Shown piece after piece: positions 52,207-58,840 of a stretch of 64,000 nucleotides of DNA. Below the pieces are notes generated by a model. It had not been told where the DNA came from. It saw nothing but the letters and a program-made list of their open reading frames with translations, and did no database searches. Position 1 is the stretch's first letter, and the number at the start of each line of letters is the position of its first letter. The translations under genes were made by a program, and so were the position numbers. Source of the DNA: Salinarchaeum sp. Harcht-Bsk1 (lineage in GTDB: Archaea; Halobacteriota; Halobacteria; Halobacteriales; Salinarchaeaceae); assembly GCF_000403645.1 (NCBI RefSeq), contig NC_021313.1:1569014-1633013 (forward strand), given 5' to 3'.

Positions 52207-53826
52207 GTGCATAGGCTGGTGCCGCGACTGCTCGTGTTCGGGCACGATCCAGAGAGCGGTGCCATCGCCGAGGCCCTTGCCGGGAGCGAGTTCGATTCCG
52301 AGGTCGTCACCGTCGCGAGTCGGGAAGCGGCGCTGACCACACTCGACCGCCAGCGGATCGACTGCGTGATCACCGGCTACGACGTGCCCGACGAGCGGGG
52401 CCGGACCTACATGGGTGGGCTCCGGCTCCTCGAAGCCGTGCGCGAGGAACACGGCGACCTGCCGGTCGTGATCTTCACGGACGTCGTGAACGAGGATAGC
52501 CTCCGACTCGCCGCCGCGAACGGCGTCCGGGCGTACGTTCGGGACCAACCCGGTGAGGATGCCGTCGGCCAGCTACGCTATCACGTGGATTCGGCGATCC
52601 GCGGCCAGCTCGCGGAGCGTCGCGCCGCCGAACAGGACCGGATCAACCACCTGATGCGCGGCGTGACCCAGACGCTCGTGCTCGAGGAGGATCGCGGCGA
52701 GATGCTGGCAGCCCTCTGTTCGGAGCTGACCGAACAGGCCGTCTACCGATACGCGGCGTACCACGAACGCAGGGAGACGGGGGTCGATCCCGAACCTGAC
52801 AGCGCGGCCGGAAGCGCGTCGGGCGAGACGAGCGATACCGGGTTGGCCCGGCGCTGCGTGGAACGGGGGACGGTCGAAACCGCAAGACTGCGACGGCTTG
52901 TAGGTGACGATTCGGAGACGGACGCCGGGGCGACCGACCCGGCCGCGAAAGCCTGTGAGACGCTGCTTCGCGTGGCCGTGCCGATCGGCTACGAGGACGA
53001 GCGCTTCGGCGTCCTCGTCCTCGAGACCGATCCCGAGCACGCCGTCTACGAGAGCGAAACCGCCGTCCTCGCGGAGCTCGGCGAGGCGATCGGCCACGCG
53101 CTGAACGCCGTCGAAACGCGGGACGCACTCGAGCAGCGCGAGACGGAACTCGAACGACGGACCGAACAGCTTGAGAGATTCGCGAGCCTCGTCTCCCACG
53201 ACGTTCGGAACCCGCTCAACGTCGCGCAGGGGTACGTCGACCTCCTCGAGGAGCGAAGTGACGACCCGGCGATCGAGGAGATCGCGCAGTCGCTGGATCG
53301 GATCGAGGCGATCATCTCGGACATCCTGGCGTTGACCCGTGCCGAGCAGGAGCTCACGCTCGCGCCGACGGAGCTCACGGTAGTGGTGTCCGACGCCTGG
53401 GCAGCGGTCGACACGCCGAACGCGACGCTCGAGATCGCCAAGGGGGCGAGCGAGGACGGTGGCCTCCCGCGCGTCGAGGCCGACGCTTCCCAGCTGCAAC
53501 GCGTTTTCGAGAATCTGTTCCGGAACGCGATCGAGCACGGGCGGCCGGACGAGGGGGAAGATGCCGAAGCGGTGACGCTGACCGTCCACGTGACCTTCGA
53601 CGCCGAGGACGGCGAACTCGTCGTCGCCGACGACGGCGTCGGCTTCCCCGACGGCGCGACCGCTGCACTCTTCGAGCTCGGCGAGACTGGCAGCCGGGAT
53701 GGCACCGGCATCGGACTCGCGATCGTCGGCGATCTGCTCGAACGCCACGGCTGGACCGTCACCGCGGAGAACGGACCATCCGGCGGCGCCTGCTTCCGAA
53801 TCGGCGGTATCAAGCCGCTGGAGTGA
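52207..53826 (+). CDS. histidine kinase with degenerate receiver and GAF-like domain
   Basis: The 539-residue protein starts at GTG. It contains a receiver-like domain at about residues 6-115 in which the phospho-acceptor aspartate is replaced by glycine (DCVITGYDVPDERG; G57). A GAF-like domain follows (about 150-300, QAVYRYAAYHERRETG; FGVLVLETDPEHAVYESETA). A coiled coil leads to the H-box VSHDVRNPLNVAQGY (histidine about 332). The ATPase part has RVFENLFRNAIEHG, VVADDGVGFPDG and GTGIGLAIVGDLLERHG. It signals in the cytoplasm or at the membrane; there are no membrane helices. No response regulator is adjacent. Confidence 0.9.
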   Translation: MHRLVPRLLVFGHDPESGAIAEALAGSEFDSEVVTVASREAALTTLDRQRIDCVITGYDVPDERGRTYMGGLRLLEAVREEHGDLPVVIFTDVVNEDSLRLAAANGVRAYVRDQPGEDAVGQLRYHVDSAIRGQLAERRAAEQDRINHLMRGVTQTLVLEEDRGEMLAALCSELTEQAVYRYAAYHERRETGVDPEPDSAAGSASGETSDTGLARRCVERGTVETARLRRLVGDDSETDAGATDPAAKACETLLRVAVPIGYEDERFGVLVLETDPEHAVYESETAVLAELGEAIGHALNAVETRDALEQRETELERRTEQLERFASLVSHDVRNPLNVAQGYVDLLEERSDDPAIEEIAQSLDRIEAIISDILALTRAEQELTLAPTELTVVVSDAWAAVDTPNATLEIAKGASEDGGLPRVEADASQLQRVFENLFRNAIEHGRPDEGEDAEAVTLTVHVTFDAEDGELVVADDGVGFPDGATAALFELGETGSRDGTGIGLAIVGDLLERHGWTVTAENGPSGGACFRIGGIKPLE

Positions 53827-56141: not shown

Positions 56142-57557
56142 ATGACTGGAGATGACACCACCGCGGCGGACGACGCCGCGAACGATGGAGCGGAACCGGA
56201 TCGCATCGAACGACTCGAACGGACGGTCGAGACGCTCGCCGAGCGGGTCGTCGAACTGGAGACCGAGCGCGCCGCCACAGCCAGCGGCGGCGGGGTCGTC
56301 TCGCGGCGGTCGGTGCTCGGAGCGCTGGGGCTCGCCGGCCTGGCGGGCCTGGGCGCGACCACTGCAGCCGGCGATCCGCAGGGCCAGATCGGGACGTCGA
56401 ACGACCCGCTACGGGCGCTGAACGTCGAGACGATCAACGCCGGTCTCGCGTCGACGCAGTTCGAACTCTCCGTCGGCGGGAGCCGTGCCCTCCACCTCGG
56501 TCAGGAGGAGCAGACGCAATCGCTTGCCGGCTCGGTCGTCCTCGGGCACTCGAACAACGGCGCATCGGGCCCGTGCGCCACGATCAGCGGCGGCGGCCGG
56601 GCCGGCGCGCCACACGATGCGGGCCGCAGGGCGGCGGTCGGTGGCGGCACGGGCAACGAGGCGACGGGGAACGCCGCAACGATCGCCGGCGGCATCACCA
56701 ACGACGCGAGCGGCAGGCAGACCGCCATCGGGGGTGGCAACGGTAACACCGCGAACTCGCTGCAAGCCACGATCAGCGGCGGCAGGGACAACACCGCCAG
56801 CGGCGAGGGGGCGACGGTCGGCGGGGGCGTCCTGAACGAGGCCAGTGGCGACTACGCGGTCGTGCCGGGCGGAGAGGCAAACAGTGCGGCGGCGCCCCAC
56901 TCCTTCGCCGGCGGGACGCACGCGTCCGCGACGCACGAGGGGGCGTTCATCTGGTCCGACACTTCGAGCGGTGGGCTCACCACGCTGAACCCGGACGAGT
57001 TCGCCGTGCTGGCCTCCGGCGGCACGTTCTTCTTCTCGAACGCAGGAGCGACGACGGGCGTCGAGCTGTCCTCGGGGTCGGGCTCGTGGTCCTCGGCGTC
57101 CTCGCGGACGCTGAAGTCCGACGTCGAACCGGTCGCCGGCGAGGACGTCCTCGAGCGGGTGACCGACCTCGAGATCTCCCGGTGGAGTTACGACAGCCAG
57201 CCCGGCGTCCGGCACATGGGCCCGATGTCCGAGGAGTTCCACGAGGCCTTTGGGCTCGGCGACGACGAGGAGCAGATCAGCACCGTCGACGCCGACGGCG
57301 TCGCGTTCGCCGCCATCCAGGGCCTCGCGGAGCGCAACGAAGAGACCACCGAACGTGTAGAAACGACCAGCGATCGGATCGACGAACTCGAAGCCGAGAA
57401 CGAGGCACTCCGCTCGGAGCTCCAGGAACTCCGTGCCGAAGTCGAGTTCGTCCAGAATGCGATGGTCGCCGCCGACGGTGGAATGCCGAAGGAGTCGACG
57501 GTCACCACCGGGGAGGGAGACGCCGGCGATCCGGAGAGCGGAGGCGAAGGGCAGTGA
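56142..57557 (+). CDS. Tat-exported head-repeat fibre protein with C-terminal S74 chaperone domain
   Basis: The 471-residue protein begins with an acidic coiled coil (RIERLERTVETLAERVVELE, about 21-40). A twin-arginine signal follows (VVSRRSVLGALGLAGLAGLG, about 52-71), an unusual long region before the arginines. YadA-type head repeats then run from about 130 to 265, with GGGTGNEATGNAATIAGG, ITNDASGRQTAIGGGNGN and SGGRDNTASGEGATVGGG. The C-terminal part (SSASSRTLKSDVEP, about 318-330) matches the intramolecular chaperone/S74 self-cleavage domain with a Ser-Lys pair, followed by a coiled coil. It is probably a surface fibre or adhesin. Its stop overlaps the next gene as GTGA. Confidence 0.8.
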   Translation: MTGDDTTAADDAANDGAEPDRIERLERTVETLAERVVELETERAATASGGGVVSRRSVLGALGLAGLAGLGATTAAGDPQGQIGTSNDPLRALNVETINAGLASTQFELSVGGSRALHLGQEEQTQSLAGSVVLGHSNNGASGPCATISGGGRAGAPHDAGRRAAVGGGTGNEATGNAATIAGGITNDASGRQTAIGGGNGNTANSLQATISGGRDNTASGEGATVGGGVLNEASGDYAVVPGGEANSAAAPHSFAGGTHASATHEGAFIWSDTSSGGLTTLNPDEFAVLASGGTFFFSNAGATTGVELSSGSGSWSSASSRTLKSDVEPVAGEDVLERVTDLEISRWSYDSQPGVRHMGPMSEEFHEAFGLGDDEEQISTVDADGVAFAAIQGLAERNEETTERVETTSDRIDELEAENEALRSELQELRAEVEFVQNAMVAADGGMPKESTVTTGEGDAGDPESGGEGQ

Positions 57558-58840
57558 GGACCCGCGGCGTGATCGCGGCGGTCGCGATCGCCGCGCTCCT
57601 CGCGGTCGCGATCGGTTCACTCGGCGGCGTCGCGGCCGCCGACCCGGACGCCGGGTGCGTCGGCACCGAACGGGGGACGCCCTTCCAGACGGACGGCGGC
57701 TTCACGGTCTGGTACAACGACAGCGAGCCGATGCCCGGCAGCGGGCCGTTCGTCGACGACCAGACCCTCCGGTTCCGGAACGTCACGCTGTCCTCCGGGG
57801 GTGCCACCGAACTCGTGCTCGAGGACGGGACGGGTCCGGAGACCTGCCTCGGTGGGATCGACGCCACGGCGGCCCCGATCGTGATCGACCCCGACGGCGA
57901 GCAAGCAGTGCGCGTCGCGGGGCAGGTGCGGGCGCTCTCGGTCGCGGACGCGCAGTTCGGCGACGGCGCGGCCGACTTCGCGTACGACGCAACGAGCGAC
58001 TGGACGATCGAGGTCACCGACACCGGGTTCGGCGGCGGGACCACGATAGAGGCCGTGGACGCCAGCGGGAGCACGCTCGCTACCGGCACCGTCGACAGCT
58101 CCGGTGCCCTGGGTCTCACGCTCCCGGCGGGAACGAACGAGGTCGCACTCCGAGCGGAGAGCGGGAACCAATCGGATGGCGGAACGGACGGTGGGAGCGG
58201 CAGTGGAGATGACGGCGACGGCAGCGGGGACGGTACCACCGACGGGAACGCGACCGACGACGCCACTGACGGCGGATCCACGAACGACGGTGACGGCGGG
58301 TCAACGAACGACACTGACGGCAGTGGCAGCGATGGGTCGAGCGACACTGACGGCGGGTCCGCAAGTGGCACTGACGGCGGCAGCGACGGGGCGAGCGGCG
58401 ATGGCGACGGCGGCGAGAGCGACAGCGGGCTGCCCTGGCCGCTCATCGGCGGTGGCGTTGCCGCCGTCCTGGTCGCCGGCGGCGCCGGCTACTTCCTGAA
58501 CAGCGGCGGGCGTGGCGACGCGACCGGCGCCGACGGCGGAGGTGGCTCGACTGACGGGCCGGCTGCCGACGTCGCGGCGGGCAACGGCGCGACGGCCGCA
58601 GCAGACGACGCCGGGACGGAGTCCGCCGGACAGGGGGAGACAGGGCCACAGGACGCCGGAGCCGACGCGGGGGCACCGGCAGCGGCCGAGTCGACGGCGG
58701 TGGACGACGCGGCGAACGAGGAGATGGATCGGCCTGCCGACGACGACCCCGTCGACGACCCCAACGACGGATCCACCGCTGAAGCCCGGGAGGGAGACGA
58801 AGGCGGCGAAGCAGGTGAGAACGAGACGGCCGACGAGTGA
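57554..58840 (+). CDS. membrane-anchored Ser/Gly/Asp-rich surface protein
   Basis: The 428-residue protein starts at a GTG overlapping the fibre gene stop. It has a Sec-type signal (RGVIAAVAIAALLAVAIGSL, about 4-23), then a folded beta domain to about residue 200 (GTPFQTDGGFTVWYNDSEPM; GPFVDDQTLRFRNVTLSSGG). A long linker built of G, S, D, T and N follows (about 200-293). A membrane helix (LPWPLIGGGVAAVLVAGGAG, about 294-313) and an acidic cytoplasmic tail complete it. The linker offers many O-glycosylation sites. It probably anchors or displays the co-transcribed fibre (inference). Confidence 0.85.
   Translation: MRTRGVIAAVAIAALLAVAIGSLGGVAAADPDAGCVGTERGTPFQTDGGFTVWYNDSEPMPGSGPFVDDQTLRFRNVTLSSGGATELVLEDGTGPETCLGGIDATAAPIVIDPDGEQAVRVAGQVRALSVADAQFGDGAADFAYDATSDWTIEVTDTGFGGGTTIEAVDASGSTLATGTVDSSGALGLTLPAGTNEVALRAESGNQSDGGTDGGSGSGDDGDGSGDGTTDGNATDDATDGGSTNDGDGGSTNDTDGSGSDGSSDTDGGSASGTDGGSDGASGDGDGGESDSGLPWPLIGGGVAAVLVAGGAGYFLNSGGRGDATGADGGGGSTDGPAADVAAGNGATAAADDAGTESAGQGETGPQDAGADAGAPAAAESTAVDDAANEEMDRPADDDPVDDPNDGSTAEAREGDEGGEAGENETADE

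Follow-up and report, generated by a model that had tools for sequence, protein, structure and literature searches.

A candidate two-component surface adhesin of haloarchaea: a Tat-exported mosaic fibre protein and its membrane-anchored partner

Introduction

The nearest known concept to the system considered here is the mosaic adhesive trimer (MAT) of Bdellovibrio, where the cell encodes trimeric adhesive fibres both with and without an S74 domain, and where the tip is a self-processing S74, a TNF-like, a beta-sandwich or a C-type lectin domain (PMC10769870). The serine-lysine dyad of the S74, or ICA, domain is represented by Ser1264/Lys1269 in phage T5 (PMC4690869) and by S578/K583 in MYRF (PMC3742443), and in pb1 of T5 self-cleavage also requires an oxyanion arginine (Arg1250), which comes from the neighbouring chain and lies 14 residues before the serine (PMC4690869). 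A further point of reference is LSV-48N (PP151251), a lemon- or spindle-shaped virus of Haloferax (PMC12714723). The subject of the present account is a pair of genes, termed gene A and gene B, at positions 56142 to 58840 of a 64,000-nucleotide stretch of the genome of Salinarchaeum sp. Harcht-Bsk1 (NC_021313.1, 1,569,014 to 1,633,013), which is referred to as the window. The locus is probably a two-component surface adhesin, in which a mosaic trimeric fibre encoded by gene A would dock through its mature N-terminus into the ectodomain of the gene B product. An earlier, preliminary description of this DNA had recognised a fibre and an anchor; the unnamed domain of gene B, the base motif of the fibre and a link to viruses are new here.

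The gene pair and its conservation

Gene A (56142..57557, 471 amino acids, ATG start) encodes a Tat-exported mosaic fibre protein and gene B (57554..58840, 428 amino acids, GTG start) its predicted Sec-exported, membrane-anchored partner; both genes, and the parts of each described below, lie on the forward strand. The two reading frames share 4 nucleotides (GTGA), as the preliminary description had it, and the observation of a fibre and anchor gene pair is confirmed. In the sister species a syntenic locus holds orthologues of both genes between matching neighbours, from which it follows that gene A and gene B are both under coding constraint. In the sister locus two Tat-S74 genes stand in tandem with a 4-base overlap, and the gene B orthologue comes after them.

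What do the fibres that are found next to a gene B have in common? The shared part consists of a coiled coil, a twin-arginine translocation (Tat) signal and the adjoining segment (A)DPQGQ(I/V/L)GTxxDPLxxLY, which in gene A is DPQGQIGTSNDPLRALNVETI (residues 78-98, 56373..56435) and which, on the basis of alignment and co-occurrence, is proposed to be the plug for gene B. This base motif is kept in 18 aligned fibres, where positions G33, T34 and P38 of alignment A2 are invariant and G30 nearly so. In most relatives an A-x-A/G site stands directly ahead of the segment, and conservation reaches its peak just behind that site.

The distribution of the motif was followed with A2 as a 57-position profile that covers the Tat signal and the base segment, with full-length places counted at E<1e-9 in 391 haloarchaeal genomes and with weak matches (E>1e-7), which cover only the generic Tat part, ignored. 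By this measure 28 of the 31 full-length places have a gene-B domain at most 9 kb away, on the same strand in all cases, against a chance expectation of about 0.5% per place. The three unpaired places are a degenerate fibre with an anchor-like end (genome G214), a truncated one (G325) and an intact fibre whose genome also has a gene-B gene, far apart from it (G207). Fibres that combine the base motif with a Tat signal and an S74 domain have a gene-B domain in their cluster every time (10 genomes, three families), with the Tat-S74 gene then followed, in families other than that of the window, by the gene-B-domain protein at loci L035, L038, L040-L042, L045, L047 and L048. Two Tat-S74 fibres that are devoid of the base motif (L044 and L052) act as a natural control, in that their genomes give no gene-B match. 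Conserved pairing was one of the tests that had been set earlier for the idea of a fibre and anchor operon; the pairing in 10 genomes for Tat-S74 fibres, and in more for fibres with other tips, bears that idea out. A literature search found no description of this gene pair, which is weak evidence of absence.

A number of these loci have features of their own. At L125 (G214:C5) the N-terminus of a fibre runs into an anchor-like C-terminus, apparently as the product of a deletion. The Tat-S74 gene of L038 (G043:C1:2484628-2488909) is seemingly split by an IS200/IS605-type insertion with TnpA- and TnpB-like genes, with gene B left open. L045 (9069-14954 in gene orientation) has three neighbouring surface proteins with a common dockerin-like C-terminal segment, GTDGLRDAIDDWRxGEIxTDLLRDVIDAWRSG, and between these proteins lies another Tat fibre. 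At L035 and L089 small toxin-antitoxin-like genes of RelE and HicA/HicB type, recognised by eye, are found between or beside the fibre and gene B.

Exchange of tips and fusion to a kinase

The C-termini of the fibres adjacent to gene B vary widely and include S74, a C1q/BclA-like end (L091) and others. Within the tree of gene-B ectodomains the S74 and non-S74 partners interleave, with for instance the S74-type L048 as sister to the non-S74 L086a at 99/93, and therefore it is the base segment and the ectodomain that are constant and the tip that is exchanged. This constancy is the reason for proposing that the two dock.

In three genomes of one genus (L040-L042; L040:8811-11723) the gene-B ectodomain is found within a long histidine-kinase-like protein, and Pfam reports HisKA_7TM and HATPase_c in the two fusions that were scanned. 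The phospho-acceptor site of the fusion kinase reads TQDLR for SHDLR in all three, a replacement of histidine by glutamine, and directly after it, with a 4-nucleotide overlap, comes a canonical kinase gene with SHDLR. Fusion of the ectodomain to a seven-transmembrane (7TM) kinase fits a receptor role, and a natural reading of the sequences is that the fusion protein may sense engagement of the fibre.

Anatomy of the fibre protein

From its N-terminus the gene A protein is made up of an acidic stretch, a coiled coil, the Tat signal, DPQGQIGTSNDPLRAL, head repeats, a short beta region, the S74 domain and a final coiled coil. The first coil (residues 20-45, 56199..56276), assigned from sequence, lies on the cytosolic, N-terminal side of the twin arginines; a similar coil precedes these arginines in the cellular relatives, giving an unusually long region ahead of them. 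The Tat signal itself (residues 52-77, arginines at 55-56, 56295..56372), recognised from sequence, hydropathy and alignment A2, contains the motif SRRSVLG (residues 54-60), a hydrophobic segment and an A-x-G site ahead of D78, with cleavage predicted after G77, and so the Tat signal attributed earlier to this gene is upheld. The head repeats (residues 145-264, 56574..56933) form about seven 14-residue units of the YadA/UspA1 type xATxxGGxxNxASG and are matched by phmmer to the UspA1 head (3pr7, E 3.9e-15). The label YadA-like is thus apt for the repeats; it does not extend to the anchor, as the YadA C-terminal beta-barrel is absent among the Pfam matches shown and the C-terminus consists instead of S74 and a coiled coil (residues 385-443, 57294..57470, from the Pfam scan and the structure model). 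Scans of genome contigs with gene A and with alignment A6 gave no matches.

The S74 chaperone domain (residues 320-370, 57099..57251) is recognised by Pfam as Peptidase_S74 (PF13884) with 30.4 bits, the cut-off being 22 (E 4.8e-7). Its model (predicted local distance difference test, pLDDT, 81) has S74/ICA domains as all of its ten top PDB matches, the first of which, MYRF (7dc3), has a probability of 1.00 though an E of only 0.01. The C-terminal chaperone domain of the preliminary description is therefore substantiated by both score and fold. Gene A is the sole S74 gene found in the Salinarchaeum sp. Harcht-Bsk1 genome, and S74 was found in at least 22 of the 391 sampled haloarchaeal genomes, a tally that, like the other class-wide ones, is a lower bound, the first-look filter having missed the S74 of the window itself.

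The self-processing that had been claimed for this domain has become less certain. The Ser-x4-Lys dyad is intact (S320/K325), has the spacing found in T5 and MYRF, and is kept in 26 of the 27 haloarchaeal S74 domains examined; the T5-type oxyanion arginine has no counterpart, with no arginine in the 25 residues before S320, and 7 of the 27 relatives have one at -14. Because the dyad is kept and the arginine missing, a role as chaperone is likely and self-cleavage less sure; were it to occur, the putative scissile bond would be A319-S320. The missing arginine bears upon cleavage activity and not upon membership of the S74 fold.

Gene B and its ectodomain

Gene B starts with a Sec-type signal peptide (residues 1-29, 57554..57640, by hydropathy and alignment), which is followed by the ectodomain (residues 30-206, 57641..58171), an acidic Asp/Gly/Ser/Thr-rich linker (residues 207-292, 58172..58429), a transmembrane helix assigned by hydropathy (residues 293-316, 58430..58501) and an acidic cytosolic tail (residues 317-428, 58502..58837), the linker and tail, both strongly acidic, being evident from sequence. 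The signal peptide, linker and membrane anchor had all been recognised previously; the main part of the protein, its conserved ectodomain, had been overlooked. This domain of about 177 residues, defined by alignments A1 and A3 and by the model, contains C35 and C98 and is the proposed socket. AlphaFold2, given 27 sequences, predicts a nearly all-beta fold with a pLDDT of 94 and a predicted template-modelling score of 0.89.

The ectodomain is a previously unnamed domain. No Pfam family was found to cover it, Foldseek at E<0.001 returns nothing for its model from either the PDB or the viral predictions, and a second structural alignment gave only middling similarities, the best being to GH98 enzymes at Z 7.3. 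With a six-row profile the domain is found in 34 of the 391 haloarchaeal genomes, about half of them as strong matches, and no full-length copy was found among 294 genomes of the phylum outside Halobacteria, where the matches are partial.

Neighbourhood of the locus

In both species the pair is flanked upstream by a membrane gene that we take, by sequence recognition, to be of DUF502 type and downstream by what is presumably a proline dehydrogenase gene. A receiver-GAF-histidine kinase-like gene lies at 52207-53826 of the window, 2.3 kb upstream of gene A, and does not belong to the block that is conserved in the sister species.

Virus-like cassettes

Distant relatives of gene B (L093-L101 and L104, the former matched by profile A1) are longer and have several C-terminal helices. 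The protein of L101 is 31% identical to CDS0012 of LSV-48N over 83% of its own length (E 2e-42); the gene-B ectodomain corresponds to the N-terminal part of the CDS0012-homologous proteins in these cassettes. Several of the virus-like loci have further LSV-48N homologues in preserved order, and at L095, L099 and L101 a Tat coiled-coil protein with the base motif is found directly upstream of the gene-B relative. CDS0012 might be the most abundant virion protein of PMC12714723, with which its domain layout fits.

In LSV-48N itself hmmsearch finds no gene-B ectodomain, and the structural block is without a recognisable Tat fibre gene. A tblastn search of phages with gene B of the window gave no match, and scanning viral contigs with A1, L104, L101, L099 and the LSV-48N proteins gave no confirmed relative, and therefore the virus link rests on the in-genome cassettes together with LSV-48N. 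In the ectodomain tree the cellular type shows diversity and for the most part stands apart from the viral type; the viral rows do not form one clade in the best tree, and a single viral group is not rejected (p 0.07). Two other viral affiliations were considered. A pleolipovirus origin of the spike was dropped, the cassette neighbours matching LSV-48N instead, and the tail of SSV19 gave no PDB sequence match; the VIA match that the ectodomain gives to 7xdi_F is weak (Z 4.2), stands amid unrelated folds and is not used.

Some of these elements appear in more than one copy. Gene-B-type matches of equal score recur on G264:C4 (8835, 22912 and 36989) at a spacing of 14,077 bases, as if the assembly contained a virus-like element repeated in tandem, and a further copy lies on the chromosome (C1:3298118). 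Genome G099 has the same virus-like fibre and gene-B pair on the chromosome, at C1:1587361-1588604, and on a separate contig, at C3:8391-9634; the scores are equal, which would suit an element present in both integrated and free form.

Proposed mechanism and alternatives

How might such a fibre be built and held? In the adhesin proposed here the gene A chains would trimerise in the cytoplasm, where the N-terminal coiled coil would nucleate the process and the C-terminal S74 chaperone complete it, and the folded fibre would then cross the membrane by Tat. Folding and trimerisation ahead of export are plausible, and would agree with the presence of a conserved coil in the stretch, longer than usual, that precedes the twin arginines. 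Signal peptidase would expose the conserved N-terminus DPQGQIGTxxDPL at the base of the fibre. Gene B, exported by Sec and held in the membrane by one helix, would present its ectodomain on the acidic linker as a socket that captures this base, leaving the head repeats and the tip to point outwards and bind a ligand. The trimeric state, the order of folding and export, the contact of base with ectodomain and the adhesive role are all features that we infer.

Several points weigh against the proposal. Docking of the motif is suggested by co-occurrence and not by coevolving residues; the structure models are of single chains; 7 of the 32 listed places with a gene-B domain, mostly virus-like, have no full-length motif match nearby; and both the missing arginine of S74 and the lower-bound nature of the tallies belong on the same side.

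The virus-like cassettes raise the question of whether the locus instead derives from a spindle-shaped virus, as a leftover or as a part since domesticated, with gene A encoding a virion spike and gene B a virion tail protein in shortened form, the two being idle now or turned against related viruses. Distant gene-B relatives that form the N-terminal part of CDS0012 homologues, amid other LSV-48N homologues, would suit such an origin. We consider it unlikely, however, given that housekeeping genes, in synteny with those of the sister species, surround the window locus and no other viral genes lie close to it, that a single helix and a long, acidic cytosolic tail stand in gene B where CDS0012 has its multi-helix viral C-terminus, and that the cellular type is diverse on the tree and largely separate from the viral one.

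Other explanations dispense with the docking. The Tat segment could be an uncleaved signal anchor. Coil and membrane segment would then hold the fibre, and the product of gene B would act separately, as a co-expressed sensor or stabiliser. In favour of this is the long coiled-coil region before the arginines in cellular relatives, for which a signal alone would have no use. Its probability is nonetheless small, since the A-x-A/G site directly before the conserved segment and the strongest conservation just after it point to cleavage, and since the joint gain and loss of the base motif and the gene-B domain would be left unexplained. It is more doubtful still that the two proteins are secreted and anchored independently, their adjacency reflecting co-regulation of unrelated surface proteins and the S74 being an uncleaved relic. 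The absent oxyanion arginine agrees with a relic, yet same-strand adjacency at 28 of 31 places, in several families and again in virus-like cassettes, together with the swapping of everything except base and ectodomain, is hard to reconcile with unrelated partners.

The two-component adhesin may, more tentatively, be one instance of a plug-and-socket module common to haloarchaeal cells and spindle-shaped viruses. The gene-B ectodomain would then display any folded, Tat-exported fibre with a DPQGQxGT base, serving in cells as an adhesin or, when fused to a 7TM kinase, as a contact sensor, and on virions as a host-recognition spike. If the adhesin is real, archaea would possess an equivalent of the mosaic trimeric adhesins of predatory bacteria, with another export route, that of a folded fibre by Tat, and with a dedicated membrane partner whose domain has no name as yet. 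Its connection with spindle-virus-like elements provides a concrete candidate for the way in which such viruses may display host-recognition proteins and suggests that cells and viruses exchange display parts, and the kinase fusion is a testable case of contact sensing in archaea.

Comparison with known systems

The top PDB match of the S74 model, MYRF, is also a cellular S74 chaperone in a membrane-linked trimer (PMC3742443), although it is eukaryotic and DNA-binding and has neither fibre nor export. The phage S74 fibres and spikes, such as the endosialidase (3gw6) and T5 pb1 (PMC4690869), share with gene A the C-terminal S74 and its Ser-x4-Lys dyad, and the model matches 3gw6 and 3gud; gene A differs in its Tat signal, in the lack of the -14 arginine and in having no tail module in its neighbourhood. 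The 14-residue head repeats and coiled coils recall the trimeric autotransporters YadA and UspA1, which unlike gene A rely on a beta-barrel anchor, an outer membrane and the route of Sec and type V secretion rather than Tat. For the greater part of their length the gene-B relatives of the virus-like cassettes are homologous to CDS0012 of LSV-48N, whereas the cellular gene B does not have the viral C-terminal part.

With the MAT fibres of Bdellovibrio the likeness is one of design, as the haloarchaeal fibres also keep their N-terminus constant and swap tips of S74 and non-S74 type. The constant part may be of another kind: MAT has a conserved beta-rich domain of about 130 amino acids behind the signal peptide, and in the haloarchaeal fibres, in a comparison made without profiles, a short conserved motif and then variable sequence are seen there. 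The haloarchaeal fibres are set apart by a Tat signal, by an N-terminal coil, by the shortness of the base motif and by a membrane partner encoded alongside as a protein of its own.
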